From an uncultured Bacteroidota bacterium (GTDB taxonomy: Bacteria > Bacteroidota > Bacteroidia > NS11-12g > UBA9320): a DNA stretch of 64,000 nt. Positions within the stretch are counted from its first letter, which is position 1. Each line of letters begins with the position of its first letter. Where the stretch lies: contig CAKZLB010000046.1 of assembly GCA_937124965.1 (NCBI GenBank), positions 226,776-290,775 of the forward strand. Direction: 5' to 3'. The position numbers were made by a program, and so were the translations under genes. Shown one piece after another: positions 849 to 19,551 of this stretch. A model generated the notes under the pieces. It worked only from the letters and a program-made list of their open reading frames with translations. It was not told the origin of the DNA and made no database searches.

Positions 849-1730
849 GTGGCTGTTGTAAGCCGTAAAGTTCGATATTTTCTATTCAAAGTTTTTGGTC
901 TGCTTTCAATTGTGCGGTGGCCAAATGTTCTTTTTACAATCATTACTCAATACATCGCTGCTGTATACATTTTCGCACCGAACAAAAGGTACTGGGCAAT
1001 ACTCAAGGACTTTGAACTACACTTTATCGTTGCGTCTTCTGCATTCATAATCGCTGCTGGATTTATTATCAATAGTTTTTACGATTACGAAAAAGACTTA
1101 GTCAATAGACCACACAAAACACTATTTGATCGAGTTGTAAGTAAGGAGTTTTGTTTAAATACCTACTTCGTGCTAAACGGAATAGGGCTATTCTTCGCTG
1201 CTCTAGCATCATGGCGTGTATTGCTCTTTTTTAGTGTTTTTGCCTTTGGACTCTGGTTTTATTCTCATAAGTTACAGAAGCTACCAATCATACGAGAAGT
1301 TACAGCATCTATATTATCCGTTTTATCTGTTTTTAGTATCGTTTTGTATTATCAGCAGCTAAACTTAGTTATGGTTATCTATGGTAGTTTTTATATGTGC
1401 CTACTTCTCAATCGGGAGATTATAAAAAACTTACGAAACATTGAAGGTGATATTGTCGTAGGAAATAGTTCCATTTCTACGGTTTGGGGCAGCAAAACGA
1501 GTAAACACATTTTTGGAATTGTATCTGTGTTAATGGGATTACTCGCATATAGCTTTTATGTTATTTCGGATGGTAGTTACGTTGTAGAATTTGTAGTGAC
1601 TACATCAATTATTTTACTAGTGACATGGCTTTTATTAATAACCGCCAAAACACAACGTCAATATCAAATTGCTCATTCGCTTTACAAACTACAAATGGCC
1701 ATCAGTGTATTATACCTAATGATCTATTAA
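849..1730 (+). CDS. UbiA-family prenyltransferase (geranylgeranylglycerol-phosphate geranylgeranyltransferase-like)
   Basis: Integral-membrane prenyltransferase of 293 residues with about eight hydrophobic segments. The aspartate-rich motif NSFYDYEKDLVNRP that binds the Mg-prenyl diphosphate is visible at about residues 75-90, and a second conserved segment (NREIIKNLRNIEGD) lies near residue 185. The start is GTG, 2 bases after the kinase stop codon, so the two are probably co-translated. Bacteroidota homologues are usually annotated as geranylgeranylglycerol-phosphate geranylgeranyltransferase, but the acceptor cannot be read from sequence; a quinone or other polyprenyl acceptor is possible. 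Its stop codon overlaps that of the convergent gene at 1727. Confidence 0.85.
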   Translation: MAVVSRKVRYFLFKVFGLLSIVRWPNVLFTIITQYIAAVYIFAPNKRYWAILKDFELHFIVASSAFIIAAGFIINSFYDYEKDLVNRPHKTLFDRVVSKEFCLNTYFVLNGIGLFFAALASWRVLLFFSVFAFGLWFYSHKLQKLPIIREVTASILSVLSVFSIVLYYQQLNLVMVIYGSFYMCLLLNREIIKNLRNIEGDIVVGNSSISTVWGSKTSKHIFGIVSVLMGLLAYSFYVISDGSYVVEFVVTTSIILLVTWLLLITAKTQRQYQIAHSLYKLQMAISVLYLMIY

Positions 1731-4108
1731 TCTATTTTTAAGATTTTCTTCTGATATACTAAGCCAAACTCGTCAGTAATCTCGATAATATAAACGCCTG
1801 AAGTATAGTTGTTCAGCGACACGTTGACTTCCGAGCGTACATGTGATGGCTCCAGTTGCTGCATTATAACTCCTTGAATATTTTGAACATTAACCCGTGC
1901 AATTCTTAAACTTGAACTACGTATGGTAACGTCATTTTGGGTTGGGTTTGGAAAAACTTTTAACTCAGAAACAAAGACATTACGGACACTGCCCCAGAGG
2001 AGAGATAACGTGTCGCTAGTATATGTGCACCCTTCTGCTGAGATGAATTTTACAAAACCTTCGGAATACTGGGTATCGGCATGTTGTGAGTTCATTGAGT
2101 AGTCCATAACAGGAAGACTACTAAACGTGTCGATAGCAACGGCAGAACCATTATTTCCCATTAGGTATAAAACCACCTTAGTGTTGTTTGGTAAAATTCC
2201 ACTAACTCCGATTTTATTGTCTGAATTGTTACCAGTTCCTGAGATTTTGTGAAGTTCGCCTTCTGGTAATTCGTTGTTCTTTACCGATTGCATAGCGCTA
2301 GATTCGCATCCAAAAACATTGTAAACTTTTAACGCATATTGATAAATTCCTGCCTCCGTTGAAGTAAAGTTTGGCTCTTTTACTGATGAGTCATTCAAGT
2401 ACGTTTTGGGAGACCATGAATACTTCAATCCTGTATCTGCATCTACTTCAAAAGTCGTTTGGTCCGTAGCACACAGTATAATTGAACTGTCTAGTATGGT
2501 TACCTTTGGAATTGGATTTACTGTAACATCCACAGAATCAAAACCTTTACATCCTGTTGATGTATCTAACACGTTCACAAAGTACCGCTGATTGACATTT
2601 CCGCTAAAATCAGGATTTGTCGACGTCGAATCTGTAAGTCCTTTACGTGGTGACCAAGTAAATGCATATGGGGAGTTATTCACACCGATCGAAGCCGTAT
2701 CTCCATCACAAAGGGATACTGATTTCTTTAAGTTAGGAAGTTCAATATCTGGATTTACATCCACTTCAACTTTTATACTGTCTACACAACCATAACTTGT
2801 ATTGGTTAATTTAAACCAGTATGAGAAGGTTCCGGTATCGGACGCTGTAAAGGTGGGGTTCGCTGTATTTTCATTCTCAAGAAAAGTAGTTGGCAGCCAT
2901 GACCCAGATTCATTTTTTATGATGTGTTTTCCCAATTTAACTTCAGACCCTTTACACAAAGTCCACTTGTCAACAACGTTACTAAAGTCTGGAGAAGTGT
3001 AGGCAAGAACCATTTTGGTCGAACTGTAAATCTCTGGACTTGTTGACTTTATGCGATACACATGATTGAAGCCATAATTTCCTTTGGGAATAACACATCG
3101 AATGCTGGATGGCTTCGAACTTTGTTTAACACTCCCAAGTGTTATTGGTTTTTTAAAGTCTCCGTTGTTATCAGACATCTCTACCACAAACGAATTTCCA
3201 GAATTATACGTTCCTATCCCATCCGCAGTAATAGATAAGTTTACATCAAATGAGTCTCCAGGACAAGCTCCTACTGTTCCGGATGGTTCAAAGTAATGTA
3301 GCTTATGAAACTCCATTTTATTACAGAAATGGCATAAGACAATCAATAAATCTAAATCAGTATTCACTGCCATTCCAGCAGGTTTGTTATACGATGTTAG
3401 TTTTTTTAAGTTCTTGAAATCTTTATCGCATCGGTACAAATAGCTGTCATCCCAATTTGTAATAAAATAGTTGCCTTCGTTATCTTGAACAATGCTATTT
3501 AGGCTATCTAAACCTGTGTCCATGTATTTAGTGAGCTTTCCTGATGCAGTGTCAATTTTGTAAATTTTCCCTGCCGTGTCGTCTGTTACTACCAACAATT
3601 CGTTTTTAGAATTAAACGTCAATCCTTTTGGTCGACTAAGTCCGGTCGTAACTAAGTTTGTAAAACTCGGAGTATAAAATGGTGGACTACCCACTTTTCC
3701 TTTAACAATTCTATTGGCTCCGACATCCGACAAATAGAAATACTGCGGATCACGTGGATCAACCTCTATATCATCTATATCCATACCCGTAGCTTTAGAA
3801 ATGTCAAAGGCTATTACCCTATTATAGCCAACCGCATCATAAACCACAACCTGGTTATTATCGATTAGTAATAAACCTTTGTTCGCTCCAACACTCCCAA
3901 CAATTAAATCACGTGGATCTTTCAAGCCAGTTATTACCGTTGAAACTTTATAATTTGAGTCCATTTCAAGGACTTTCCCATCTCCCCTATTTGTGATTAA
4001 ATATGATTTTTTTGCAGCATTATACGCTACTCGATAGGGTCTACTGTACTGAGCATAGATGCTCGTTATGAACAGCGTGAAGAAAAGTACTAATCCTAAT
4101 TTTTTCAT
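1727..4108 (-). CDS. secreted beta-propeller/PKD-like protein with T9SS type A sorting domain
   Basis: Extracellular or surface protein of 793 residues. Order of parts: a signal peptide (MKKLGLVLFFTLFITSIYA, residues 1-19); a six-bladed NHL/SMP-30-like propeller (about 25-265, recurring DPRD, RPKGLTF and KPAGMAV blade motifs); PKD/Ig-like cysteine-containing modules (about 280-620); and a T9SS type A sorting domain in the last 80 residues (VFPNPTQNDVTI, then SGVYIIEITD, then a lysine-containing tail). The ATG overlaps the stop of the upstream RmlD-like gene as ATGA, suggesting translational coupling. No catalytic motif is visible. It is probably an adhesin or structural surface protein, and the function is unknown. 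Confidence 0.85.
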   Translation of the reverse strand: MKKLGLVLFFTLFITSIYAQYSRPYRVAYNAAKKSYLITNRGDGKVLEMDSNYKVSTVITGLKDPRDLIVGSVGANKGLLLIDNNQVVVYDAVGYNRVIAFDISKATGMDIDDIEVDPRDPQYFYLSDVGANRIVKGKVGSPPFYTPSFTNLVTTGLSRPKGLTFNSKNELLVVTDDTAGKIYKIDTASGKLTKYMDTGLDSLNSIVQDNEGNYFITNWDDSYLYRCDKDFKNLKKLTSYNKPAGMAVNTDLDLLIVLCHFCNKMEFHKLHYFEPSGTVGACPGDSFDVNLSITADGIGTYNSGNSFVVEMSDNNGDFKKPITLGSVKQSSKPSSIRCVIPKGNYGFNHVYRIKSTSPEIYSSTKMVLAYTSPDFSNVVDKWTLCKGSEVKLGKHIIKNESGSWLPTTFLENENTANPTFTASDTGTFSYWFKLTNTSYGCVDSIKVEVDVNPDIELPNLKKSVSLCDGDTASIGVNNSPYAFTWSPRKGLTDSTSTNPDFSGNVNQRYFVNVLDTSTGCKGFDSVDVTVNPIPKVTILDSSIILCATDQTTFEVDADTGLKYSWSPKTYLNDSSVKEPNFTSTEAGIYQYALKVYNVFGCESSAMQSVKNNELPEGELHKISGTGNNSDNKIGVSGILPNNTKVVLYLMGNNGSAVAIDTFSSLPVMDYSMNSQHADTQYSEGFVKFISAEGCTYTSDTLSLLWGSVRNVFVSELKVFPNPTQNDVTIRSSSLRIARVNVQNIQGVIMQQLEPSHVRSEVNVSLNNYTSGVYIIEITDEFGLVYQKKILKID

Positions 4109-5169: not shown

Positions 5170-8100
5170 TTATCTAATAATACTAATCTCGCCTTTTTTG
5201 TGGTGCTTCATTCCACGCAAATCAGTAATGGTCATTATATAGACATAAGAACCCATTTGCACTTTCTCCCCCATATAGGTTCCATCCCACTGCTTAAAGT
5301 CCTCAGATTCAAATATGCGTTCGCCCCATCGGTTAAATATTTGGATTATTATGTTTTCATATCCCAAACCAACCACTTTAAAAACATCGTTGTTGCCATC
5401 GCCATTTGGGCTAATAGCATTAGGTATAAATACCAATAACTCATCATTCACAATCAGTGTTTGCTGAGTTGTATCCAAACAGCCTTTGTCGTTTTCAACA
5501 ACCAAGGTTACTGGATATTCTCCACCTTCTGTGTATGCATGCTTCGGATTTTGATTTGTTGATGATTCAAAATCCCCAAAATTCCAATCCCACGCCACAA
5601 TGTTCAATACCGAGAGATCTTTAAATGTTACAAGCGGATTTGACAAATAAATATCGGTTGGAGAATAATTAAAACTTGCTGTAGGTTTGGGGAAAACATC
5701 TATCGACGTATCCTTTGTGATGTCACAGCCATTGGTTCCAAAAACTCTTAACTGTATTGGATACAAACCCTTGTCAAAGGTTTTACTGAAATTATATTGA
5801 TCATTTTCAAACTGACCTAATATATACCAACTTACGCTGTCTTCATTCCCAACTTTCTCAGTTGAAATAAACACAGGAAGTGGTTCACAACCTTCATGAG
5901 GATTTAACAGAATGGTATTTGTTGGTAACGATAAAACTTCAACCTCTATTGAATCTGACGCACTGCAATTTGAGGCGTTTGTAAGCGAGTACACAACCTT
6001 ATTTGTACCAATGACAGCATCCTCAGGCGTAAACAAACCTGCACTTGAGACATACTGACCACCGCTAAATAACCCTCCCATTGAATTTGGTATTATTTGG
6101 ACTGGATTATCATTTAAGCAAAGTGGGTTGATTGGGGTAATAGTTGCATCTGGGTTGTCATTTACAATAACTTGAATTGAATCCGTTGATAAGCATGTAT
6201 TACCATCTGTAAAGGAATAATAAATTCTATGATTTCCTGACGTTGCTATGCCTGGTTCAAAAAGACCAGTAGCTGATGTCCCATTACCACTAAAAGCACC
6301 TCCACTATTGGTTTGTGCAACTAATTGCTGTGGCAAATCATTTACACAAAATGGTCCAGCTGCTACTATTGACGCATCAGGTATCGTGTCTACAGTAATT
6401 TGCAATGAATCTTTGTTCGAACATCCATTGCCATCCAACACAGAATATAAAACCCAATGTTGACCACTCGCCGCAATTTTCGGATCAAAAGTACCAGTTG
6501 AGGTTAAATATGTTTCGACTCTAAATGATCCAATTGAGTTAAACAATGCTGAAATTGTTTGTATTCCCCCATTTTCACAAAATGGCCCAGCTGGAGCAAT
6601 TTGTGCGTTAGGAATTGAATCCACTTGAATTGTGGTTGAGTCTATATTCGAACACCCGTTACCATCTGTTGCGGTGTAGAAAATTTTATGGAGCCCGACA
6701 TCTGCAACCGTTGGATTAAAATTCCCTGACGTATCTAAATAACTTGTTGAGGAGAATCTTCCATCTCCAGCGACTACAGATTCTAACAACTGAATAGTGT
6801 CGTTTTTACAGAATGGTCCGGCTGGAATAATGGCTGCATTTGGGAAAGAATCAACCTTAATTATGGCAGAATCCATTGCCCAACATCCATTACCATCCGT
6901 TAGTTGATAATATATTTTGTGATCACCAGTACCTGCAATGATTGGCCGAAACACACCATTTGTATCAATAACCGTGGACGCAATAAACTTCCCTCCGATT
7001 AAATTCTCTGGTTGAATTACCTGATTTCCAGCATTAGGACAAAATGGTCCTGCTGGTTTAATAGCGGCATTTGGAATACTGTCAACAACCACCGTATTTG
7101 AATCAATATTCAAACATCCGTTTCCGTCTTCATTTTGATAATAAACCCAGTGAGTTCCTGCCTTAGCTATAGCTGGATCAAACAAACCATTAGAATCCAA
7201 ATAGGTCGTTTCAACAAACCTTCCACCAGCTACTACAGGAATTAACCGCATAGTATCAGCGTTTTCACATACCTTCATTGGGTTAATCGCAGCATTAGGA
7301 ATACTATCCACCCTTATCTCCAAAGAATCTAATCCACTACAACCAGCACCATCGTTTATTTCATAATAAATTCTGTGGCTACCGATTCCGGCAATTTGAG
7401 GATCAAAATTACCAGCAGTATCTATGTAAGTAGTAGCGACAAACTTTCCACCAACGATTTCTGGTTCAATCAGTTGAATCCCACCATTTTGACAAATTGC
7501 ACCCGGGTCTTTTATTGAAGCGTTTGGTAAAGAATCTACTCGTATAGAAGATGAATCAGTATTGCTACAACCATTCCCATCGGTGTAGGAATAATATATT
7601 TTATGATTACCTACGTCAGCAATCATTGGGTCAAATCTACCTGCAGAGTCAATATATGGCAATGGCCCGAATTCTCCACCTGCGCTTACAACAGCTGCCA
7701 AGGTTTTAACACCTGAATTAAAACAGAACGGACCTGCCTGAGCAATACGTGCATCTGGAATTGTATCAACTATTACAGTATTCGAATCAATATTCGAGCA
7801 ACCTTTACCATCCGTATAAGAATAGAACACTTTATGGTTTCCGTTTTTAGCAATTGTTGGGTTGAACAGGCCAGTCGTGTCAAGATATGCCGTTTGTATA
7901 AACTTCCCACCAACAACCTCAGTAGTTAAGCGAATCGTATCAGCATTTTCGCACACTTTTAATGCATTGATCGTTGCATTTGGTATGCTATCAACTATAA
8001 CTGAAATGGAATCTAGCCCAATACATCCTGCAGTGTTTGTTATTTCATAAAAAATCGTAAACGAACCAACACCTGCAATTTGCGGATCAAAATTTCCTGC

Positions 8101-11100
8101 AGTATCCAAATAACTGGCGGTAATAAACTTTCCTCCTGATAACTCTGGTTTAATTACTTGAACTCCTGCATTTTGACATATAGATCCTGGATCTATAATC
8201 GAAGCATTTGGCAATGAGTCGACAGTAACTATGGTTGTATCGGCATTACTACAACCATTTCCGTCGGTGTACGAGTAATATATTTTATGCGCACCAACAT
8301 CTGCAATCATTGGATCAAATCTCCCGGCAGAATCTATGTATGGTAATGGTCTAAATTTACCTCCTGTATTCACAGCTGCAAGAATAGTTTGTACTCCGGC
8401 ATTTAAGCAAAATGGTCCAGCCGGCTGAACGCTTGCATTTGGCAATGAATCGACAGTGACTATGGTCGTATCTGCAGATGTACACCCATTGTTATCGGTA
8501 AAAGTATACGTTATAATGTGGCTTCCAGCTTTCGCGATAAATGGATCAAATTTTCCTGATGAATCTATATATGCAGTTTTCCCAAACGTCCCGCCAGAAT
8601 TGGTCACTGGTCTAATTGTTTGAATACCAGCATTCTCGCAAAACGGTCCAGCAGACTGAATGCTCGCATCTGGTAACGTATCAACGGTTACAAATAGAGA
8701 ATCACTTGCGGAACACCCGTTAGCATTCTGAATTGTATATATCACCTTATGGTTACCTGGCGTGGCACTGTATGGATTAAAATATCCGTTTGAATCGATA
8801 TACGTTGTTGGAGTAAATGTACCACCGTTACTAACTGTGTTTATGCGCTGAACTGTGTCGTTGACACAAAAAGGTCCAGCAGGGTTTATAGCTGCATTTG
8901 GTAGGCTATCGACAGATATTACGATTGAATCTTTATTCGAGCATCCGTTTCCATCGGTAACTTTATACACAGCTTTGTGTTTTCCAGCTAACGCAATTTT
9001 TGGGTTAAATCGCCCATTAGTATCAAGATAACTAGTTTGAACAAACTTCCCAAACGTATTTACACTCCCTGTGATTATTTGAATTGAATCATTTTCGCAG
9101 TAAGGCCCAGAAGCTGAAATTGCGGCATTTGGCAGACTATCTACCCGAACAAAAACGGTATCTCGACCAATACATCCAGAACCATTTTCTCGTTCATAAA
9201 CTACCTCATGACTACCTATACCTGAATAGGCAGGATTAAACCATCCGCTCGTGTCGTTATAAGCTGTTGCAACAAAACGACCACCACTGAACAATGCTGT
9301 AATTTTTATCGAATCATCGTTCAAGCATAAATCGCTAGGTTGAACTAGTGTAGCACTTGGTAAGCTGTCTACATAAATTACTGTAGATGCATAGGTTATA
9401 CACCCTTTACCATTTGTCTGAGTGAAATTAATACTGTGAGATCCTTGACCAGCAATGGAAGGATTAAAATTACCTGCAGAGTCAATATATGTTCCTCCCG
9501 AAAAATATCCACCCAAAAATGGACTCGCCGTTAGTTTGCTGACAGTATCATTCAAACAGTATGGTGAAGTGGTGTTAATCGTTACTGGTGTTGTCGTGTC
9601 AACTTGAATAACTGCACTGTCAACTGCAACACAACCATTGCCATCGGTAAAGGTATAATACACTTTATGACTTCCTTTTTGCGCAACAAATGGATTAAAT
9701 ACACCTGCCGTGTCGATATAAGCCCCCCCTGAAAAGGAACCACCTGAATTGATGAGTCCTATCAGTGTATCTTTTGCACTATTCACACAATATGGCTGAT
9801 TAGAGCTAATAGATACAGAAGGGATTGAATCAACTGTGATGTATGTTGAATCAGTATTCGAACACCCATTGCCATCTGTAATGGCATATTGAGCCAAATG
9901 AGTTCCAGTATTCGCTATACTTGGGTTAAAGTTACCCAAACTATCGAGATATGCTGTTTTAATAAAAGTGCCCGAAGTACTGCCGATAGGTTGAAGTACC
10001 TGAACTCCAGAATTCTCACAAAAAGGACCAGCCGGTCGAATTGATGCATCTGGAGTCGAATCGACCACAACAATAATCGAATCTGTATTACTACAGCCAC
10101 TGCCGTTAGTCGTTGTATAATACACCGTGTGACTGCCAGCTAGCGCAATGCTGGGATCGAACTTTCCAGTTGAGTCTATATATGCACCTTGAGTAAATAA
10201 TCCTGATGTTGCAGAGACGGGATATAATTGGAAAATTGTGTCATTTTCGCAGAACGGTCCTGCAGGTATTATACTTGCACTTGGTATTGTGTCAACTACG
10301 ATATCAATAGAGTCAATAGCTTCACAATCGGTAGAATACGTTTTATAATACACTCTATTTACGGATTGATTGGTCAACGACGGTGTAAATAAACCGCTCG
10401 AATCAACATAAATTCCGCCGAAGTAGTATCCATCTGTATGATTCACAACGAGTTGAACTGACGAATCGTTCTTACACAATGTGTCAACAGGGTTAAACAC
10501 GAGTGTTGGAATCGAATCAACTATAAAAAAGCCAGTATCCAACGCCAAGCAGCCGTTGGTATCTATTACCGAGAAGTATACTGAATTGCTACCAAAAGAT
10601 GCTGAATCAACAACTACTAAACCTGTACTATCAACTGCATTGTTTCCATAAAAATAGCCATTAGTATCTGGTTTTGTTAATGTAAAAGAATCAAGCAATG
10701 AACAAATGTTTTCATCTGAAGTAAACAAGCTATCAATTTTCGGAAATTGAGTTACTTCAATACTATCGGTGTTGCTCTCACAACCAAAACCATCCACAAC
10801 AGAAACAACTAATTTTTGTATTGGACTTAAATACTTAACTGAATCAGAGGATGCATCGGACCATGTGTAATTATATTGCCTTTCAGACTGAGGAGTAATA
10901 ACAACTAGTTCACTATTGTTTTTAGATAGTTGGAAATTCTTTAGTCGATACGCATTGTTGTAATAACTTCTTGCCCCAACGCCAAACTTGAACCCAGTTT
11001 GTGTTCGAGTGATTCCGTCTGTATAGCTTAAGTAAAGCACCCCATCTATGTAAATTTCAACATATTGATTTCTATAATAAATCTTCACATTGTGCCAACC

Positions 11101-14100
11101 ACCGTTATCCAAGTCTATCCCTGTATTGTGGGTGTTTAATCTAGCATTATTCCATTCAAATTGAAGTTGGTTATTTCCATCAAACGCAAACGAATATCCT
11201 CCACCAGAGAAATCCTCATTTGTAGGGGTCGTGGTATTAAACAAATAGAACCATAACGCATAGTAGTTCTTTCCAGAACTAAAGTAATCAAAGGTTACCG
11301 TAAAACTATCGGTCAAACTCAAGGTTGAGTCCTCCCATTCTATTTGACCATTTCCACTAAATATATCTTCAGAAGTTAATTGAACATACCCATCGCTTGC
11401 ACTGTGTGTCGCATTGTTTTTCACAGATCCTGTTATTGAGGAATTCATCGAATCTTTAACTAAATACGGACTAAAGTATGTAACCGTAGGACGGATTGCA
11501 ATTGAATCATTGGCGCAGATTGTCGTATCTGAAGGCAAGCTGACCACTGGGTACGGGTTGACTTGAACATAAACACTATCAACGTATGGGCACGCCGAAC
11601 GCATCTTAACTTTTAAGAAATCAAAAAATGTGTAACTCGTGGTAGTACTTGTATTGACTTTATTTGATTGTAAAATAACTCTAAGCTTCCTTGATGTTTT
11701 TGGGGTCGTTCTAGAATGCTCAAGATATTGCCAATCATTATTGTAGTTTTTCAACCCAGACTGATAAATGGCTAACAAATTATTATTTGCATCTAGATAC
11801 TGCAGTATAATCTGACCTTCGTCTTCATACGACGAATGCCCTTTTATAAATCCAGTAATTGAAGTTTTTGCAATCCCGGAATCTATTTCTACCGAGTCTG
11901 AAGAAATATCAATATCTTGGTATGCTTCCAATACACCCGTTGATGCGGCAGCCGAATGACTTGCATAACCAACATAACTTGAGTCTCTTGGACTGTAACT
12001 GCTCGTCCTATTCCAATTTCCCGAATTAATTGTCCAACCATAACTTGCCATGTCTTTTTCTAAACTAGCGTTCTCCAACAAATGAGGTTTATCCTGCATT
12101 TTGTAGAAATACGTACCTGTAGAATTTACCGTTATTGAGTTCGAAGAATCTCCTGTACTCCAAACTCCATCACCGTGCGACAACACAGCTGTTAACGTAA
12201 CACTATCGCCCAAGCATAAATTTGTATCGTTTTGAAGGATGTCTAAATTCGGTGCAAAAGGCACGTCAATTACAATCTCAATGGAATCTTTACTTCGGTA
12301 CTCAATTTGCTCAACGACAAGTTTTACAGTATATGACTTTTCTTCACTAGATGGTGGGTATATTACTACTGGGTTAAGCGCAGTATCCGTAAGCCCATTG
12401 TACCCAAAATCCCAGAAATAGCGGATCGAGTCCCCGCGAGAGGATGTATTCACAAATTCAATTACATTTTCAGGGCAACCTGTGTTGTAGTAAAAAGCCG
12501 CATTCGGTTGGAATATATCGACAGGATTACACGTTGTATCGGTGTTAACCTTAGCTTCGGCAGACATTTCCAGTTCACCTTTGGCACCGTCAGGGGTAAC
12601 GATTTGAACATAATAGGTTCCTTTTCGAATACAATCGAGAGTGAACGTGGTAAGTGCATTGTTGTTGCACGGACCTGAAGTCAAACTTTTACAATTCCCA
12701 TAGTATGTTCTGTATCGTATTTCGCTGGCAGTTGCATCTGTGTATTCACCAAGTTTAAACTCCAAATCTACTTTTGTTGTATCCGTATAATCAACAACAA
12801 ACCAACTTGATTTATAATCTTTAGGTCCATATAAACAACCCATATCACTACCATCCTCGCCAAAGTCCGTTCCAATTGTATGACAATCAACGAGCAATCG
12901 ATCCTTCACTAATCCTAACGAATCCAATCTTAATGGAACGGCAGTTTCACAAAAGTCTCCAGTATGAAAGTCAAAAACAAGTTGTGGGATTACATAATCA
13001 CTGCAAGCATGTTGATCACATTTATTTATTTGAATATAATAAGTCCCTGGGTTTACGCAGATGTAATATGCTGTTCCATTACTCATCAAAGACCTGTATT
13101 TATTTGAAGAACTGATTGGCGGAATTCGGGTAAGTCCACTAAGTGAGTCACCAACTGCCGTTGACCGATATACTCTAATTCGATTATTATCGTAACTCGT
13201 TCTGGTTAGTGTATTGGTGCCTGATAAATAGCTGTACAAGTAGTTATAATGTAGGAATCCCGTTGAGTCAACATCAAACTTGTACCACACCGTTCCAGCC
13301 GTTGCTGAATTTCCACAGTTGCTGTAATATGTTCGATTATAATCGGTTGAGTCTAATGTTGATCCTGCGAAATAGGTCAAATCTCCTTGATACAAACGTT
13401 GACCAGCAAGTGGTGCTGGATTATTCTTGTTTGGCGTTGAAATCCGCAAATCAAAATCGTCAAAATAGACATCGTTGTAATTGTTCGACGACTTATATAG
13501 TGCTTCTAACTGTACTCGAATTTTAACCGTTCCTGTCGGAATCGTACGGCTATCAGAAACTGATTGCCATCCACCTATGGACTTTACCCATGAACTTGTA
13601 AATTGTGAAATCACACCACCAGACGAGTTTATATATTGAAGTTTTATTCTTCCTTCGTCTGGGTTTGTTTCGTTTTTGGACTGAATGTAACCTGAAAGGC
13701 TGGATGTTGCAGATCCTGCGGCAATAAAACTTGCATACGCCGACACGTCAACGTCCTGATAAATTATCCCTGTATCTCCCTTAGATTGATACGGTTTGTA
13801 ATACGCCCAAACGTGCCCTCCGCTAACTGGCGTAACATCACTTCTATTATACGTCCAACTCCCACTTGTACTAGTCCAACCAGTTGTGGCGTCAAACCCA
13901 CCATTAACCAAGAGGTTTGCATCATTCAACCCATTAATGTCATTCGCTGTTGAGTAATAGTCAAACTCTGTGTCTGGAATATATAGACTATCGTATTTTA
14001 TCTCTAACCAAATATTATGGTTTAAGTTGGGAGATTGACGTTGGTTGTAATAATTCGTTGTTTCTACTAAAACATAATAGCGTCGCGGTTTTACTTTTTC

Positions 14101-17100
14101 ACACGATGAGATGGCAAACGTGGCAGACAAGTCAGACGTATAGTAGCAATACGTATAGTCACGGTCAACATAAGTTAATCCATCATTTTTAGTTGAGTCA
14201 ATTTTGCCGGAAGATTTTAAAGATGCTAAACTTAAACTTCCGTCTTCGTCAGATTCATAAATTGCAAAACGCACAGATTGGTTTAAGCCATTGATGAGAT
14301 TTGACGTGTTCCCTTTTAAATCAACCGTTACGTTACCACGACCTTCAACCACAAAGCTGTACCACAAGTTCCGTCTTACAGGACTACCCCAAGGATAATA
14401 CGTTGTGTTATCGCTGTATCGATAACTGCTTGAGTCATAAAGAAAATAACCTGCATTTGTATCCTTTGAGTAGACATATGGACTCACATGACCGTAACAT
14501 CCTACTTCGGTTGGGTCGGTTCGTTGTGCGCCGGTTCTGCATGTAATCATGTCATGACTGGCAGGTAAACTTGTGTCTTTAGGATGAAAGTCACCTATTT
14601 TACCATCATAAAACGAGCTATTACCAGGTATTTTTCCAAAATCGTACGCATTAGAAGCATGATCAAATCTCGAGTCTGCCACGCTATCCATATGTAAAAC
14701 CGGCTGCACGGTAGCTCGTGTTCCAGCGGTTCTTTTACAATAATATACCACTGAATAGGTGCCAGCTAGTAAATTACAAAAAGCTATATAGTTTGCATCA
14801 TAATTACAGTCTTGTATTGGTGTTGCGGTAGCTAGCTTAGCTGAATCCTTTCGTACGTCAAAGTCGTACAACTTAACATCCCATGTCCCGCCAGACTTAT
14901 TGGCATAAATGCGCACATATGCATCTTTAGCAGTTGTGAAAGTATAATAAACAATATCAGTTGTGTTGGTATCGCAAAGTGTTGACTTCGGATGATGATT
15001 CAATGGCGTATCCAAATCACATTCTAAAATTTCTTTTGGGAATGTGTACTTTGCTAAATTTAAGTACATTCCACTAATCGCACTGTAGTTCGTATCGTAG
15101 CTTAATGACTTGTTGCCATTTACTAAACTATCAATAAAAGCCGCTTTTGAGGGACGGTAAAATTTAGGTGGAGTAATTGAACTAGCTCGTGTCGTAATAG
15201 TAATATTATGCGGATACTGAAAAAGTCCAGTACTATTACCTGATTGATACCTATTTGCCGAATCATAGTCTATGTCCCAATCGTTGCTTACCACGACGGT
15301 ATACCAGCCCGCTTCTAAAGGCTTACAATCAGAAGTTGTTCTGTAATATCCTGTACATGACCAATCTAAACCGTCGTCATACAGTTTTAACCCCGACTTA
15401 CCGTTTCGTATGTCTCCAGAAAACAATGAAAACCTAGCGCCTCCATAATGGTAAGGATAGTACCCAACATTGATTGTCGTAACAGCAGTACTGTCTAAGT
15501 AAAACACACGGTAAGCATTTCGCTTCCCACAATACTGACCATCTATGGTGTCTGGATTTACATTGCAATTAAAGGTATCTACTTCTCCTGTGTACGTACC
15601 ATACGAAGTTATGGAGTCAATAAATTGTGCCTTCGAATAGGTGTTAAATTTACGTTTGGCACTATAAAACTGAAACCTTGGTGTTTCTGTCCTAGATATT
15701 CCAATACTATCAAAATATGAGACTAGCGTATATGTTCCCGGTTCAAGACAACCTGAAGCTGCTGATGTAGATTGAGCAAAACAGTCTGAATGTGCTGTCA
15801 GACCAGTCAAAGTATCTGGATATCCGCTAACAGATTGTGTTGAACGCAATGCTAAAGCGTCTCCTTTATAAATTCTATGCCAAGCGTTGTAATCATAGTA
15901 AGGATAGCCACGATACACCGTTTGCCAACTACTCATATACAACATTCCACTATCCGCTAAACCATCATTATCCGCATCACCAATGACAAAGGTTCGGTAC
16001 ATTGCCTTTTTATATGCTGAATCACAAATTTCTAGCGGACGCACAGCATCATTACACGAAATAGTATCAATTTGCCCGTTAACGGTAGTGTACTTAGGCA
16101 AATCATTTAAACTGTAAATGGAATCTCCTTCTCCAACATTGGTTAAGGCAAATCGATTTGCCACTGGTAAACGACTTTGATTTAGGTTGAACTTGTAGTC
16201 TCCTCCAAGATGCATGCTTCCAGAGCATGGCCAGTTTGAGTAATCTCGTACTGTGTCTGTTCCTAATAGCTGTATAGTATACTTACCTGGCTCCAAGCAA
16301 TCAACTGTGTATGTTCCATTTCCTGTTGCTTTGATTAATACATTGTTTGTGTCTATTCCTGTGCAACTTGACGTAACTGTGTCCTTAAATAAGCGAAACG
16401 CTAGCTGTTGATATCGTTTGTAATTGCCGTTGCTACCATAGGTCGCTTGCACGGATAATTTTGACTGTTGATCTAGGGTAAACTCATACCATTGAGCCAT
16501 GTTGTAATCATACCCCCCGATTGCGATTGACGTTGAATTAGCATTCCCACATGTATTCTGAGTGATGTAAGAACCACAGGAAAAACCCGTATTAAATGAG
16601 TTGTTACCACGAATAATTCCAAGGTCTTTAGCATAACTAGAGTTAGGTTGATATCTGCCAGAATCATACTGTGATGTTTGATCTGAAATTCGAAACCGCA
16701 TGGTTTTAATTAAATCCTTGTGATACAGAAGCTGAACGGAATATGTTTCACCAGAATCAAACAAACATTTGTAGTCTCTTACAATTTCACTGCAATTAGT
16801 GTAACACGTATTTGCGGCTCTCCAGTCGCTATACATTGAGTCTAACAGTTGTAAACTTCCTCCACCTCGAGAATCCCCTTTAAACAATCGAAACGCCACT
16901 GTATCCGTGGTAGAGCAACCACTTTTATGACTCAGTTTTAGTTGTGTGTTGTCATGATCTCGATTTGCCTTAAAAACAAACCATGCGCTTTGATTGTACG
17001 CTAAATAGTTTGAACCAAGATCTTTAAAAAATTCTGTGGAATCACTTATCGTATAACACCCCATCTCGTAGTCGACATAGGCAGACTGCGACCCATATTT

Positions 17101-17715
17101 TCCAACTATTTGGTCTCCAAAATCATAAGCGCTGTCTTGATCATCGTATTCCGCATTAACTACCGCAGGGTATTGATGAGGGTATATGGTGGTAATCTCC
17201 AAATAGACTTTTCCCATGGCGCGAGCCTTGGAACTTACCTGAACTAAATACCAACCTGGATCCATACATGGGTGAAATGAACTTCCAAATTGATTTAAGG
17301 TCGTCAGTTTTGCATTTGTTGCCGCTGTAGATGCGGGAAGACATTGATCTGTTAAGTATGTGGTGAATCCAACATCCTTCGTTGCAATGGCGTTGGCATT
17401 CTGCTTTAATTCTATATTAACCCCGCGACGCGCCGGAATATAAAATTTAAACCAAATGGTTTTTTTATCATTTCCAGAGGAGACTAAAGACGAGTGAAAA
17501 TATTCTCCAACTTGAAGAGTTGCACTATCTATGTTTATTGAATCACTTTGGAACGTCCCTATGGAAAACCCTCCGGTACCTAACCCAATTTCTATGGCAT
17601 TCTGGCAACTGTCGTTTTGTGGAAGCTGAGCGAAAACATCGCCTGCTAAAAAAATGCTACTGCTAAAAAGTAAAACTCTATAAAGGTATTTTAAATAGTA
17701 CTTCAAACGACACAA
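5170..17715 (-). CDS. giant secreted repeat protein (4181 aa) with T9SS type B (CHU_C) sorting domain
   Basis: Very large surface protein, likely adhesive. Order of parts: a signal peptide (about 1-29, ending GDVFA); nine related modules of 130-220 residues (about 30-1720), each with a [W/Y]xxF-type strand, paired cysteines and a late [P/A]GxYx[V/I/L] strand; a carbohydrate-binding-like insert (about 1265-1425, starting LLVNGGFDATTGW); PKD (about 1730-1870); a second carbohydrate-binding-like insert (about 1875-2040); a LamG/L-type-lectin-like domain (about 2090-2260); about 21 tandem 75-78-residue repeats (about 2325-3932); two PKD domains; and a gliding-motility-type C-terminal domain (about 4093-4181, FIPNAISPNGDGNNDVFKV, then FNRWGERIFES). 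There is no ATG near the signal peptide. The start is TTG at 17715 or, equally possible, TTG at 17706 (MKYYLKYLYR). No enzyme motif is seen. Confidence 0.9.
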   Translation of the reverse strand: MCRLKYYLKYLYRVLLFSSSIFLAGDVFAQLPQNDSCQNAIEIGLGTGGFSIGTFQSDSINIDSATLQVGEYFHSSLVSSGNDKKTIWFKFYIPARRGVNIELKQNANAIATKDVGFTTYLTDQCLPASTAATNAKLTTLNQFGSSFHPCMDPGWYLVQVSSKARAMGKVYLEITTIYPHQYPAVVNAEYDDQDSAYDFGDQIVGKYGSQSAYVDYEMGCYTISDSTEFFKDLGSNYLAYNQSAWFVFKANRDHDNTQLKLSHKSGCSTTDTVAFRLFKGDSRGGGSLQLLDSMYSDWRAANTCYTNCSEIVRDYKCLFDSGETYSVQLLYHKDLIKTMRFRISDQTSQYDSGRYQPNSSYAKDLGIIRGNNSFNTGFSCGSYITQNTCGNANSTSIAIGGYDYNMAQWYEFTLDQQSKLSVQATYGSNGNYKRYQQLAFRLFKDTVTSSCTGIDTNNVLIKATGNGTYTVDCLEPGKYTIQLLGTDTVRDYSNWPCSGSMHLGGDYKFNLNQSRLPVANRFALTNVGEGDSIYSLNDLPKYTTVNGQIDTISCNDAVRPLEICDSAYKKAMYRTFVIGDADNDGLADSGMLYMSSWQTVYRGYPYYDYNAWHRIYKGDALALRSTQSVSGYPDTLTGLTAHSDCFAQSTSAASGCLEPGTYTLVSYFDSIGISRTETPRFQFYSAKRKFNTYSKAQFIDSITSYGTYTGEVDTFNCNVNPDTIDGQYCGKRNAYRVFYLDSTAVTTINVGYYPYHYGGARFSLFSGDIRNGKSGLKLYDDGLDWSCTGYYRTTSDCKPLEAGWYTVVVSNDWDIDYDSANRYQSGNSTGLFQYPHNITITTRASSITPPKFYRPSKAAFIDSLVNGNKSLSYDTNYSAISGMYLNLAKYTFPKEILECDLDTPLNHHPKSTLCDTNTTDIVYYTFTTAKDAYVRIYANKSGGTWDVKLYDFDVRKDSAKLATATPIQDCNYDANYIAFCNLLAGTYSVVYYCKRTAGTRATVQPVLHMDSVADSRFDHASNAYDFGKIPGNSSFYDGKIGDFHPKDTSLPASHDMITCRTGAQRTDPTEVGCYGHVSPYVYSKDTNAGYFLYDSSSYRYSDNTTYYPWGSPVRRNLWYSFVVEGRGNVTVDLKGNTSNLINGLNQSVRFAIYESDEDGSLSLASLKSSGKIDSTKNDGLTYVDRDYTYCYYTSDLSATFAISSCEKVKPRRYYVLVETTNYYNQRQSPNLNHNIWLEIKYDSLYIPDTEFDYYSTANDINGLNDANLLVNGGFDATTGWTSTSGSWTYNRSDVTPVSGGHVWAYYKPYQSKGDTGIIYQDVDVSAYASFIAAGSATSSLSGYIQSKNETNPDEGRIKLQYINSSGGVISQFTSSWVKSIGGWQSVSDSRTIPTGTVKIRVQLEALYKSSNNYNDVYFDDFDLRISTPNKNNPAPLAGQRLYQGDLTYFAGSTLDSTDYNRTYYSNCGNSATAGTVWYKFDVDSTGFLHYNYLYSYLSGTNTLTRTSYDNNRIRVYRSTAVGDSLSGLTRIPPISSSNKYRSLMSNGTAYYICVNPGTYYIQINKCDQHACSDYVIPQLVFDFHTGDFCETAVPLRLDSLGLVKDRLLVDCHTIGTDFGEDGSDMGCLYGPKDYKSSWFVVDYTDTTKVDLEFKLGEYTDATASEIRYRTYYGNCKSLTSGPCNNNALTTFTLDCIRKGTYYVQIVTPDGAKGELEMSAEAKVNTDTTCNPVDIFQPNAAFYYNTGCPENVIEFVNTSSRGDSIRYFWDFGYNGLTDTALNPVVIYPPSSEEKSYTVKLVVEQIEYRSKDSIEIVIDVPFAPNLDILQNDTNLCLGDSVTLTAVLSHGDGVWSTGDSSNSITVNSTGTYFYKMQDKPHLLENASLEKDMASYGWTINSGNWNRTSSYSPRDSSYVGYASHSAAASTGVLEAYQDIDISSDSVEIDSGIAKTSITGFIKGHSSYEDEGQIILQYLDANNNLLAIYQSGLKNYNNDWQYLEHSRTTPKTSRKLRVILQSNKVNTSTTTSYTFFDFLKVKMRSACPYVDSVYVQVNPYPVVSLPSDTTICANDSIAIRPTVTYFSPYLVKDSMNSSITGSVKNNATHSASDGYVQLTSEDIFSGNGQIEWEDSTLSLTDSFTVTFDYFSSGKNYYALWFYLFNTTTPTNEDFSGGGYSFAFDGNNQLQFEWNNARLNTHNTGIDLDNGGWHNVKIYYRNQYVEIYIDGVLYLSYTDGITRTQTGFKFGVGARSYYNNAYRLKNFQLSKNNSELVVITPQSERQYNYTWSDASSDSVKYLSPIQKLVVSVVDGFGCESNTDSIEVTQFPKIDSLFTSDENICSLLDSFTLTKPDTNGYFYGNNAVDSTGLVVVDSASFGSNSVYFSVIDTNGCLALDTGFFIVDSIPTLVFNPVDTLCKNDSSVQLVVNHTDGYYFGGIYVDSSGLFTPSLTNQSVNRVYYKTYSTDCEAIDSIDIVVDTIPSASIIPAGPFCENDTIFQLYPVSATSGLFTQGAYIDSTGKFDPSIALAGSHTVYYTTTNGSGCSNTDSIIVVVDSTPDASIRPAGPFCENSGVQVLQPIGSTSGTFIKTAYLDSLGNFNPSIANTGTHLAQYAITDGNGCSNTDSTYITVDSIPSVSISSNQPYCVNSAKDTLIGLINSGGSFSGGAYIDTAGVFNPFVAQKGSHKVYYTFTDGNGCVAVDSAVIQVDTTTPVTINTTSPYCLNDTVSKLTASPFLGGYFSGGTYIDSAGNFNPSIAGQGSHSINFTQTNGKGCITYASTVIYVDSLPSATLVQPSDLCLNDDSIKITALFSGGRFVATAYNDTSGWFNPAYSGIGSHEVVYERENGSGCIGRDTVFVRVDSLPNAAISASGPYCENDSIQIITGSVNTFGKFVQTSYLDTNGRFNPKIALAGKHKAVYKVTDGNGCSNKDSIVISVDSLPNAAINPAGPFCVNDTVQRINTVSNGGTFTPTTYIDSNGYFNPYSATPGNHKVIYTIQNANGCSASDSLFVTVDTLPDASIQSAGPFCENAGIQTIRPVTNSGGTFGKTAYIDSSGKFDPFIAKAGSHIITYTFTDNNGCTSADTTIVTVDSLPNASVQPAGPFCLNAGVQTILAAVNTGGKFRPLPYIDSAGRFDPMIADVGAHKIYYSYTDGNGCSNADTTIVTVDSLPNASIIDPGSICQNAGVQVIKPELSGGKFITASYLDTAGNFDPQIAGVGSFTIFYEITNTAGCIGLDSISVIVDSIPNATINALKVCENADTIRLTTEVVGGKFIQTAYLDTTGLFNPTIAKNGNHKVFYSYTDGKGCSNIDSNTVIVDTIPDARIAQAGPFCFNSGVKTLAAVVSAGGEFGPLPYIDSAGRFDPMIADVGNHKIYYSYTDGNGCSNTDSSSIRVDSLPNASIKDPGAICQNGGIQLIEPEIVGGKFVATTYIDTAGNFDPQIAGIGSHRIYYEINDGAGCSGLDSLEIRVDSIPNAAINPMKVCENADTMRLIPVVAGGRFVETTYLDSNGLFDPAIAKAGTHWVYYQNEDGNGCLNIDSNTVVVDSIPNAAIKPAGPFCPNAGNQVIQPENLIGGKFIASTVIDTNGVFRPIIAGTGDHKIYYQLTDGNGCWAMDSAIIKVDSFPNAAIIPAGPFCKNDTIQLLESVVAGDGRFSSTSYLDTSGNFNPTVADVGLHKIFYTATDGNGCSNIDSTTIQVDSIPNAQIAPAGPFCENGGIQTISALFNSIGSFRVETYLTSTGTFDPKIAASGQHWVLYSVLDGNGCSNKDSLQITVDTIPDASIVAAGPFCVNDLPQQLVAQTNSGGAFSGNGTSATGLFEPGIATSGNHRIYYSFTDGNTCLSTDSIQVIVNDNPDATITPINPLCLNDNPVQIIPNSMGGLFSGGQYVSSAGLFTPEDAVIGTNKVVYSLTNASNCSASDSIEVEVLSLPTNTILLNPHEGCEPLPVFISTEKVGNEDSVSWYILGQFENDQYNFSKTFDKGLYPIQLRVFGTNGCDITKDTSIDVFPKPTASFNYSPTDIYLSNPLVTFKDLSVLNIVAWDWNFGDFESSTNQNPKHAYTEGGEYPVTLVVENDKGCLDTTQQTLIVNDELLVFIPNAISPNGDGNNDVFKVVGLGYENIIIQIFNRWGERIFESEDFKQWDGTYMGEKVQMGSYVYIMTITDLRGMKHHKKGEISIIR
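7069..7752 (-). repeat. 684-bp higher-order repeat, second copy
   Basis: Three consecutive units of 77, 76 and 75 residues (228 codons) that match, class by class, the three units at 7753-8436. Diagnostic strings are LPYIDSAGRFDPMIADVG in unit one, ICQN with TAGNFDPQIAG in unit two, and KVCENADT with NIDSNTV in unit three. The unit classes alternate in the same order in both copies. Confidence 0.85.
7753..8436 (-). repeat. 684-bp higher-order repeat, first copy
   Basis: First copy (in the reading direction of the gene) of the three-unit block. It has the same length as 7069-7752 and the same succession of 77-, 76- and 75-residue units, which points to a duplication of 684 bp rather than independent single-unit growth. 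Confidence 0.85.
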
Positions 17716-17774: not shown

Positions 17775-18695
17775 TTATAGCGACTCACGAAAGAAGTTTT
17801 TCTCAAAATCCTCAAGAGCGTGCTGTCGTTTGAGTGAAAACCTTTCCGATGCAGCAGTATTTTCGTTTAATATCTTATGACCAAGCAATGATGAAACACG
17901 CTTCCACTCATCAAGCATAGCTTTAGTCTCGTCATCTAAAAATGTTTCAACAAATCGTTCCCATACATAATCAATGGCTAATTGGTTTGGATGAATTAAG
18001 TCTCTTTCAAAAAAACGATAATCCCGCAACTCATCATTTACAATTTCATACGAAGGAAAATAAGATGCATTTGTATGATTTGACACAAGTTCATCAACCG
18101 CAATTAATAAAGTAGCTTTATTCCTGTTGTTTTCTATCAACCCATATTTGGTATATCGAACCGGACTAACTGTGAAGATAAATTTATTTGACTTGAACTT
18201 TTCTAGTATTGCGTCAAATCGTTTTACAATATCGTTTACATGCAATCTTTCTTGTTTAAACTTTGAGGCAGGTAGTTTATGACAATTTGCAACAACTTCC
18301 CCACTGTAACTATATGTCGTTGCAGTCCCAAAGGTTATTGCAATAGATGTCCCTTCCGTTTGGAGTGCATTGTCGAACAGACTTTTTTCTTCGTGAATCT
18401 TGCTTAATACAGCTTCTTTATTTGGATTCGAGAATCGGCCATGATGATTCCAAGAGTGCCATAAGTCATTGTAATAAATCAGATCACTATCCTCGTGATT
18501 TGACGATTGGTTGAAAACGTTGGCTATTGAAATTGGGTTGTACAGTATTCCGTTTGGATTAGAAACGACGGTGAATCTATTTTCAATAAGTTTTTGGGCA
18601 ACAGATTCTGCAAAACATGACCCCAGAGTTATGATTGGATTCCTATAGTTTATAAGAACGTCAGGTGTAAATGTAAAATCAAGTTTAAACAGCAT
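17775..18695 (-). CDS. GSCFA domain protein
   Basis: Protein of 306 residues, named after its N-terminal motif, here LGSCFAESVAQKL (about residues 25-37). The family is SGNH-hydrolase-like, and the conserved late block ERDLIHPNQLAIDYVWERF is also present, as is TVSPVRY in the middle. Activity in this family is not established; by fold analogy it may be an esterase or acyltransferase. No signal peptide is seen, so it is presumably cytoplasmic. It lies 59 bases upstream of the giant surface-protein gene on the same strand, and a terminator hairpin separates it from the lipoprotein gene upstream, so its own promoter must lie in the short space at about 18696-18710 or transcription must read through that terminator. 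Confidence 0.85.
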   Translation of the reverse strand: MLFKLDFTFTPDVLINYRNPIITLGSCFAESVAQKLIENRFTVVSNPNGILYNPISIANVFNQSSNHEDSDLIYYNDLWHSWNHHGRFSNPNKEAVLSKIHEEKSLFDNALQTEGTSIAITFGTATTYSYSGEVVANCHKLPASKFKQERLHVNDIVKRFDAILEKFKSNKFIFTVSPVRYTKYGLIENNRNKATLLIAVDELVSNHTNASYFPSYEIVNDELRDYRFFERDLIHPNQLAIDYVWERFVETFLDDETKAMLDEWKRVSSLLGHKILNENTAASERFSLKRQHALEDFEKNFFRESL

Positions 18696-18759: not shown

Positions 18760-19551
18760 TTATTCGCAAGTGTAAGTCATTGCTATATTTAGAGTCTCCC
18801 CTAAAGCATTCATTGATCCTTTCGTAGGATAATTATCACTGTTGTACTCGTACGTTGCAGTTATTGGTAATTCTAAATCTTCATTACCAATTGTTGCTGC
18901 ATTAATATTGTTTTTAGTTAAAGACAACATATCTGTAAAGTCCATCAAATAAGAAGGGATACCATAAAATGGGTTAATCTTATCGTCAACTGCTTTAATT
19001 TTATAGGTAGTGTATTCGTCATCACCATCTAAGTCACCGTCTTCATCCGAATCAACAGTCTCTGTGAATTCTTGTAATCTACCATCGGCATATGTGTATT
19101 CGATACCAGACCAAAGCACATCAGCCATGTCCTCTTTGTAGAAATTATCAACCATCATTAGTGTACCATCTGTGTTCCACTTAATGTTATAATATTCATA
19201 CACTTCACCATCTTCAGACACATCTACTCGAGAAACCTTGTCGCCATCGTACACAATCGTGTAGGTAACAATGTCTCCATCCCAATCTTCAACGATTTCG
19301 GTAAGTTTACCACCTTCATAGTTGTAGTTGTAAGTTGTAGTTTCTCCATCTGATTCTTCAACAACTTTTGTGATATTATCACCATCCCAAGTGTACATTA
19401 CCGTTCCATCTTCATCAGATGTAGATGCAATTTTACAATTTTTTGTAGTACCTTCTCCTGGTACTGGATCCGTTGTGTCGTCGTTACACGCACCTAAGAA
19501 CAGCATGCTACATACTGCCCCCATTAAGACTAATTTTTTTACGTTTTTCAT
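18760..19551 (-). CDS. hypothetical acidic lipoprotein
   Basis: Lipoprotein of 263 residues with a signal peptide and lipobox (LFLGAC, lipidated Cys22), followed by a short acidic and glycine/threonine linker. The mature part is a run of beta-strand repeats of the kind YTWDGDNITKVVEESDG and YDGDKVSRVDVSEDG, like those of Bacteroidota YD/RHS-like or DUF4595-type lipoproteins. It is very acidic, with a D/E-rich stretch (DSDEDGDLDGDDE) that could bind calcium. No enzymatic motif is seen. It is probably exposed in the outer membrane. It is a single-gene unit with its own terminator downstream. Confidence 0.75.
   Translation of the reverse strand: MKNVKKLVLMGAVCSMLFLGACNDDTTDPVPGEGTTKNCKIASTSDEDGTVMYTWDGDNITKVVEESDGETTTYNYNYEGGKLTEIVEDWDGDIVTYTIVYDGDKVSRVDVSEDGEVYEYYNIKWNTDGTLMMVDNFYKEDMADVLWSGIEYTYADGRLQEFTETVDSDEDGDLDGDDEYTTYKIKAVDDKINPFYGIPSYLMDFTDMLSLTKNNINAATIGNEDLELPITATYEYNSDNYPTKGSMNALGETLNIAMTYTCE

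Follow-up and report, generated by a model that had tools for sequence, protein, structure and literature searches.

The 64,000-nucleotide window analysed here (contig CAKZLB010000046.1 of assembly GCA_937124965.1, positions 226,776 to 290,775) derives from an uncultured Bacteroidota bacterium and carries on its minus strand, in a single open reading frame taken from the reading frame list (5170..17715), the gene of a 4181-residue protein whose long stalk holds a tandem array of cysteine-containing repeats. Here we describe this protein and argue that its cysteines probably join each domain of the stalk to the next. The array (residues 2323-3926; 5938..10749, minus strand) consists of 21 head-to-tail units of 75-77 residues each, beginning with u01 (10522-10749) and ending with u21 (5938-6165). 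All units match the unit profile with E-values between 4.7e-21 and 9.3e-36, and although this profile was built from the same 21 units that it scored, such values imply that the repeat did not arise by chance. Four unit positions are invariant in 21/21 units, C16, G32, G44 and C68; the first cysteine, denoted C1, resides in a PxCxN motif and the second, C2, in NGCSN. The units share on average 42% pairwise identity at the protein level (range 21-69%) and 51% at the DNA level; with a score threshold of 40, Tandem Repeats Finder detects no array. At the DNA level the array is old. A block of three units has been copied within it, units 11-13 being 69, 68 and 64% identical to units 14-16. A preliminary description of this DNA, made from the letters alone, had placed some 21 repeats with one cysteine in each of the two motifs at 5920-10740, without naming a strand, and had assigned them to no exact family. 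The repeats are real, their boundaries were correct within 20 bases, both cysteines are borne out in every unit, and the 21 units draw only Pfam matches that stay below cut-off. The best of these weak matches is Big_6 (E 0.0068, 17.1 bits versus a cut-off of 27.6), Big_9 matches five units below cut-off (best E 0.023), and PKD and Ig_7 likewise score below their gathering cut-offs on every unit. Searches for a known repeat family with the whole protein (Pfam, NCBIfam), the units (Pfam) and the unit profiles (sequences of the PDB) returned only Cis19, a component of a contractile injection system, and weak matches.

The stalk comprises 26 domains in the order PKD, X, Y, the 21 units, Z and PKD, all encoded on the minus strand. 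Its first PKD-like domain (residues 1736-1822; 12250..12510) matches PKD_4 below the cut-off of 27 (E 0.002, 18.6 bits) and harbours C1 at residue 1747 while C2 is absent. The Ig-like domains X (1823-2050; 11566..12249) and Y (2051-2322; 10750..11565; borders set by eye) and the Ig/PKD-like domain Z (3927-4004; 5704..5937) possess both cysteines, at residues 1834 and 2042, 2067 and 2312, and 3943 and 3997, respectively. The last PKD domain (4005-4091; 5443..5703), which includes the best stretch (4030-4085) of the PKD_4 match of the whole protein (E 6.2e-14), has C2 at residue 4079 and no C1. Domain X appears by eye to contain a carbohydrate-binding-like insert, for which Pfam gave no match, and domain Y holds an inserted laminin-G-like lectin fold matched by Laminin_G_3 (PF13385) at residues 2122-2250 (10966..11352; E 7.1e-9, 36.4 bits, cut-off 27.6). 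Ahead of the stalk, a hydrophobic segment at the N-terminus, by eye a putative signal peptide, is followed by a half composed of divergent modules (residues 31-1735; 12511..17625), with weak matches to the T9SS-associated galactose-binding-like model GBD_T9SS_assoc (E 2.8e-4) and to PPC (E 1.1e-3), neither of which reaches the Pfam cut-off. The tip sampled here, residues 31-345, was assigned no fold; its AlphaFold2 model from four sequences has a predicted local distance difference test score (pLDDT) of 44.4 and was left unused.

The C-terminus (residues 4097-4180; 5176..5427) is a type B sorting domain of the type IX secretion system (T9SS) and is devoid of cysteines; it scores 50.5 bits against TIGR04131 (cut-off 35) and E 2.1e-19 against PF13585, CHU_C. 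The genome encodes the corresponding machinery, including SprA (2362 bits) and GldM (297 bits), both over cut-off, and seven PorP-family matches, six of them over cut-off. No PorP/SprF-like gene was found beside the gene (contig C46, about 232-244 kb), the one match listed for this contig lying at C46:172688-173602. TIGR04131 itself matches 36 proteins of the genome, 31 over cut-off, and a passage in PMC11205867 counts more than 35,000 such proteins in UniProt.

Cysteines at chain ends and domain junctions

AlphaFold2 modelling of units u08-u10 from a 40-row alignment (mean pLDDT 95.1, predicted template modelling score 0.74) yields a confident fold in which each unit is predicted to be a tandem Ig/PKD-like bead. 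Together with the Ig/PKD-type fold matches of the same model, this upholds the extended stalk of PKD/Ig-like domains suggested by the preliminary description. According to DSSP assignments on the three-unit model, C16 is located between strand A (residue 9) and strand B (22-26), where it belongs to a two-residue strand of its own (15-16); C68 occupies the turn between strands F (54-63) and G (69-79). Where Ig-like domains are joined in tandem, each has its AB turn at the C-terminal pole and its FG turn at the N-terminal one. The strand order therefore suggests that the two cysteines of a unit are separated by roughly the length of a domain, C1 at one pole and C2 at the other, and that C1 of unit n would face C2 of unit n+1.

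The ends of the chain provide the most telling evidence for such a pairing. If C1 of each domain bonds C2 of the following one, the first domain needs no C2 and the last no C1, whereas the reverse pairing of C1(n) with C2(n-1) calls for the opposite pattern. The first PKD domain contains C1 only in all ten homologues that show that end, and the last contains C2 only in 12/12; from residue 1747 onwards the window protein has 50 cysteines, 25 C1 and 25 C2. The same regularity extends to other T9SS cargo of the genome. Its 36 TIGR04131 proteins were classified by eye, and the 33 that remain once three homologues are set aside were tallied: the terminal Ig/PKD domain lacks C1 in 13 and retains it in 11, two (L084, L089) are too cysteine-rich to call and seven have no Ig/PKD domain at the end. 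In 11/11 proteins that retain the terminal C1, the linker or the sorting domain contains at least one other cysteine, a potential partner, as opposed to 1/13 proteins without C1 (Fisher p 9.6e-6). Among 20 stretches from distant genomes, ten C-terminal ends could be called; proteins of this set that were cut, that ended in other domains or in which over 330 residues follow the last detected domain were left out. Three of these have C1, each with a downstream cysteine (3/3), and seven lack it; two of the seven (L100 and the first protein of L101) carry a downstream cysteine as well, and in two others, both from L104, the terminal domain is short and of another type. At the opposite end, 11 of 58 chains begin before residue 130, of which three are contig-cut pieces of homologues and eight belong to proteins outside the family. 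In two of the eight (L083, L089) the first domain is without C2; the other six (L084, L085, L087, L092, L097 and the PKD protein at 55688-59413 of the window) keep C2 together with an extra cysteine that adjoins the presumed mature N-terminus. In unrelated chains of L095, L075 and two proteins of L104, too, the first detected domain has C1 without C2, and earlier domains may have been missed.

The inner junctions of proteins outside the family, from the same genome and the distant ones, were compared with profiles built on cysteine-masked sequences, and cysteines were sought within 5 residues of extrapolated positions. Across junctions, C1(n) and C2(n+1) are both present in 141 cases, C1 alone in none, C2 alone in one and neither in two (Fisher 2.9e-4); within domains both are present in 216 cases, one of the two in 11 + 21 and neither in none (Fisher 0.61). 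Mismatches thus amount to 1/144 across junctions versus 32/248 within domains. One of the junctions lacking both cysteines, in L092 (residues 1506-1669), is clean. In strict alignment columns nine mismatches occur across junctions, and since each of the nine has a cysteine just beyond the aligned stretch, positions were extrapolated for both pairing models. On sequence grounds the inner junctions appear to agree with the pairing of C1(n) with C2(n+1), and we accord them less weight than the chain ends.

A disulfide between C16 and C68 of the same unit, as envisaged in the preliminary description, would stabilise each bead individually and leave the junctions flexible. It accords with the retention of both cysteines in 262 of 263 family units, including 33 without an adjacent unit match, a count that excludes 28/291 rows gapped at one position or the other and that was obtained with a profile that itself contains the cysteines. 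Pairing within the domain was initially read from these 33 isolated two-cysteine units and was dropped on the chain-end data. The isolated units may, however, adjoin Ig/PKD domains that the profile misses, and the sole exception to the count, L036 (listed also as L104), has lost C2 in the domain that is, as far as detected, the first of the chain, as pairing with the next bead predicts, even if earlier domains may have escaped detection. First domains with C1 only, last domains with C2 only, the mismatches within domains and the predicted location of the two cysteines at opposite poles all argue against a bond inside the unit, which we consider improbable. One disulfide per domain is therefore probably the wrong pairing; cysteines too far apart to bond, which that description had named as speaking against it, are by strand order probably what is found within a unit and not between neighbours.

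Unit number and turnover in relatives of the protein

The unit profile matches 59 times in the genome, and 55 of these matches reside in three proteins, the window protein and two paralogues encoded on contigs C16 (4137 residues) and C74 (3790 residues). Within the family a unit match is present in 31/38 genomes searched, this genome included, and, across the phylum, in 49/395 evenly sampled genomes, with just 14 candidates scored per genome. As to a phage origin, tblastn gave one match, at 416912-417313 of LR756502.1, a 642-kb record of an uncultured phage, where about two units are encoded with 37% identity over 9% of the query.

The window protein and its counterparts in G001, G002 and G009 each have 21 units followed by 255 residues, in four species of two genera; L028, L029 and L030, all uncultured Bacteroidota, are each counted once with G001, G002 and G009, respectively. 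In a third genus, the array of each of four species counts 12 units and is followed by 260 residues, and the paralogues in the window genome have 18 and 16 units. The count leaves out G003 and G015, whose arrays run into contig ends or are broken. Assemblies break inside the array in G015 (contigs C3 and C29) and in G003 (contig C88), and draft genomes can lose unit counts in this way.

The constant number of units is not matched by constancy of the units themselves. The best match of a unit of the window protein lies at the same position for 7/21 units in G001, 6/21 in G002 and 3/21 in G009, as against 20/21 between the close pair G001 and G002. Units 8-16 of G009 form three-unit blocks that are 89-91% identical, which from the sequence is recent homogenisation with a period of three; G001 and G002 contain a copied block at lag 6, and the window protein the copy of units 11-13 as 14-16. 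Inner units have thus been replaced since these lineages diverged while their number stayed constant. Block replacement by gene conversion would explain such turnover at constant number, as would gains and losses of units that balance because length is selected for. The array is 47-62% identical to those of L028 and L029 in eight 200-residue blocks spanning residues 2401 to 4000, whereas residues 31-345 are 83, 81 and 65% identical to the three orthologues compared; a stalk that serves mainly as the spacer of a functional head would lead one to expect this better conservation of the N-terminal sample.

The 4016-residue orthologues in L028 and L029 lack about 165 residues corresponding to residues 1270-1435, approximately, of the window protein; in the latter these residues contain, by eye, a first carbohydrate-binding-like module. 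Upstream of the gene, a GSCFA-family gene and an open reading frame of 263 residues without a Pfam match occupy 17775-18695 and 18760-19551 of the window (minus strand); their relatives adjoin the gene in L028 and L029, and none were found in L030.

A predicted disulfide-linked stalk and its place among known systems

We propose that in the oxidising periplasm C1 in the AB loop (PxCxN) of bead n would bond C2 in the FG loop (NGCSN) of bead n+1, and that every junction would be stapled in this manner, the 26 domains and their 50 cysteines giving 25 predicted staples. In each of the 23 junctions measured, 24-26 residues separate C2(n) from C1(n+1). If the junctions are stapled, the shortest covalent path is computed as about 25 residues per two beads, and at 0.36 nm per residue a pair of beads would extend at full stretch to about 9.6 nm, compared with about 55 nm without staples. 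A folded pair of Ig-like beads measures roughly 7-8 nm. Interleaved staples would consequently render the stalk nearly inextensible even with its beads unfolded, and the load would be shared by two interleaved covalent paths. Such a stalk could keep the lectin-like domain and the conserved N-terminal half at a fixed distance from the cell, the number of units being retained while their sequence drifts. We assign this reading, a near-inextensible spacer with interleaved C1(n)-C2(n+1) disulfides, a probability of about 0.76.

Several observations weigh against it. In two of the 12 homologues, G009 and G015, the sorting domain contains one cysteine although the last PKD domain is without C1, which leaves an odd cysteine. 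The chain-end classes were assigned by eye and unblinded, and the homologues represent one lineage. Internal co-loss amounts to two junctions, of which one, in L089, is doubtful, since a C1-like cysteine lies just beyond the position aligned there and C2 may have been displaced; widening the window to 6 residues on either side weakens the junction test to p = 0.04, and the distant set taken by itself displays no junction variation. The constant 21 units correspond to just three independent lineages, with another two arrays cut short where contigs end. Finally, the proposed adhesive role would follow from a single match, that to Laminin_G_3.

The structural neighbours of the beads raise a different possibility. 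The top six Foldseek matches of the three-unit model are segments of GhpA, grappling hook protein A of Aureispira (PDB 9flp-9fly and 9g8b; E 3.3e-7 to 8.6e-7, TM-scores by query 0.59-0.66), among them 9g8b with E 3.3e-7 and a TM-score of 0.63, and are followed mostly by cadherins; GhpA is the best fold match over nearly the full model. VIA-align gives Z-scores of 9.7 for 9fly (root mean square deviation 8.2, 219 aligned) and 9.5 for 9flw (4.2, 214 aligned). GhpA, like the window protein, is a giant protein of Ig-like beads exported by T9SS, according to passages in PMC13319060 and PMC11205867. GhpA forms a heptameric filament with a hook. By analogy, several copies of the window protein might lie side by side as a grappling hook filament, the array forming the shaft and a hook catching prey. 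The PKD domain of collagenase G (2y72) nevertheless scores Z 8.3 (root mean square deviation 2.1, 74 aligned), and the values are too close to one another to indicate kinship with GhpA; the matches would denote Ig/PKD-type tandem beads in general. Identity in the fold alignments is just 15-22%, and no GhpA chain was found among PDB sequences at E-values up to 10 with the unit profiles or up to 1 with the whole protein. With respect to a link to ixotrophy through the type VI secretion system, the genome has no match to the sheath protein of that system (PF05943), though a divergent sheath could escape detection. We thus regard a GhpA-like hook as unlikely and the bead as probably a shared fold only. 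Intermolecular bonds that join neighbouring protein copies into a bundle are less probable still since, however well invariant and regularly spaced cysteines would suit lateral cross-links, such bonds predict no rule for the chain ends, where loss of C2 at the first domain, loss of C1 at the last and spare cysteines where these are kept fit pairing along one chain.

By sequence, the best PDB match of the units is Cis19 (All3314, 7b5h; E 9.9e-14 with the three-unit profile), the crown protein of the thylakoid-anchored contractile injection system of Anabaena and a homologue of the units, which we take not to be a T9SS cargo. Both cysteines are aligned in one of its repeats and C1 in the next. 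In the last aligned repeat (chain AA, residues 930-1258 aligned) C1 is replaced by F and C2 is kept, a pattern that fits the chain-end rule. As stated in a passage of PMC8894136, the upper domains of Cis19 could not be modelled, and Cis19 therefore offers no disulfide evidence. The PKD, Big and CHU_C-associated Ig_7 domains share the general fold of the units. With the giant T9SS type B adhesins of the SprB type (CHU_C/TIGR04131) the window protein has in common the sorting domain, the secretion genes and a very long repetitive stalk; it differs in the conserved cysteine pair of each unit and in the lack of a PorP/SprF-like gene alongside. Pfam includes a model of the SprB repeat, which is absent from the Pfam matches of the whole protein and of the units, no direct comparison with SprB having been made. 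In terms of the features by which fibrillar adhesins are recognised, a stalk of repeated domains is present and the domain matched by Laminin_G_3 is a candidate adhesive domain. The extender repeats of RTX adhesins likewise form a long stalk, its beads being beta-sandwiches and its linkers made rigid according to the abstract of PMC7493085; the linkers there have calcium, in place of which the units have predicted disulfides. We view the protein as a T9SS type B stalked surface protein of an ordinary kind, with a covalent architecture that we have not found described: inter-domain disulfides in T9SS-exported Ig/PKD arrays did not appear among the open-access literature matches listed, and the GhpA paper, which is outside them, may bear on the point.

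It seems to us somewhat more likely than not that the arrangement is general, in that the tandem Ig/PKD stalks of T9SS-exported Bacteroidota proteins would as a rule be bolted by interleaved disulfides from the AB loop to the FG loop of the next bead, with spare cysteines capping the chain ends, straps unable to stretch under load serving as an alternative to calcium stiffening and, in the family studied here, block replacement renewing the units at fixed number. If this holds across the Ig/PKD stalks of TIGR04131 proteins, chain-end cysteines would predict the covalent architecture that bears the forces of gliding and adhesion, and disulfide straps that do not stretch would offer another solution than stalks stiffened by calcium. 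Should the bonds form in the periplasm, the cargo would cross the T9SS pore with its disulfides in place, a matter relevant to what that pore has to let through. The constancy of unit number despite the turnover of blocks provides a clean case for asking whether selection acts on stalk length.

Two further proteins of the window have cysteines of a similar kind. One of them, with 1241 residues (55688-59413, plus strand), is again a T9SS type B protein and has six PKD stretches and cysteine-rich ends, and its extra N-terminal cysteine and two sorting-domain cysteines fit the capping pattern. The downstream neighbour of the gene (1727-4108, minus strand) encodes 793 residues that match Ig_7 and include a sorting tail of type A (Por_Secre_tail); by eye, its last Ig-like domain contains C2 and no C1.

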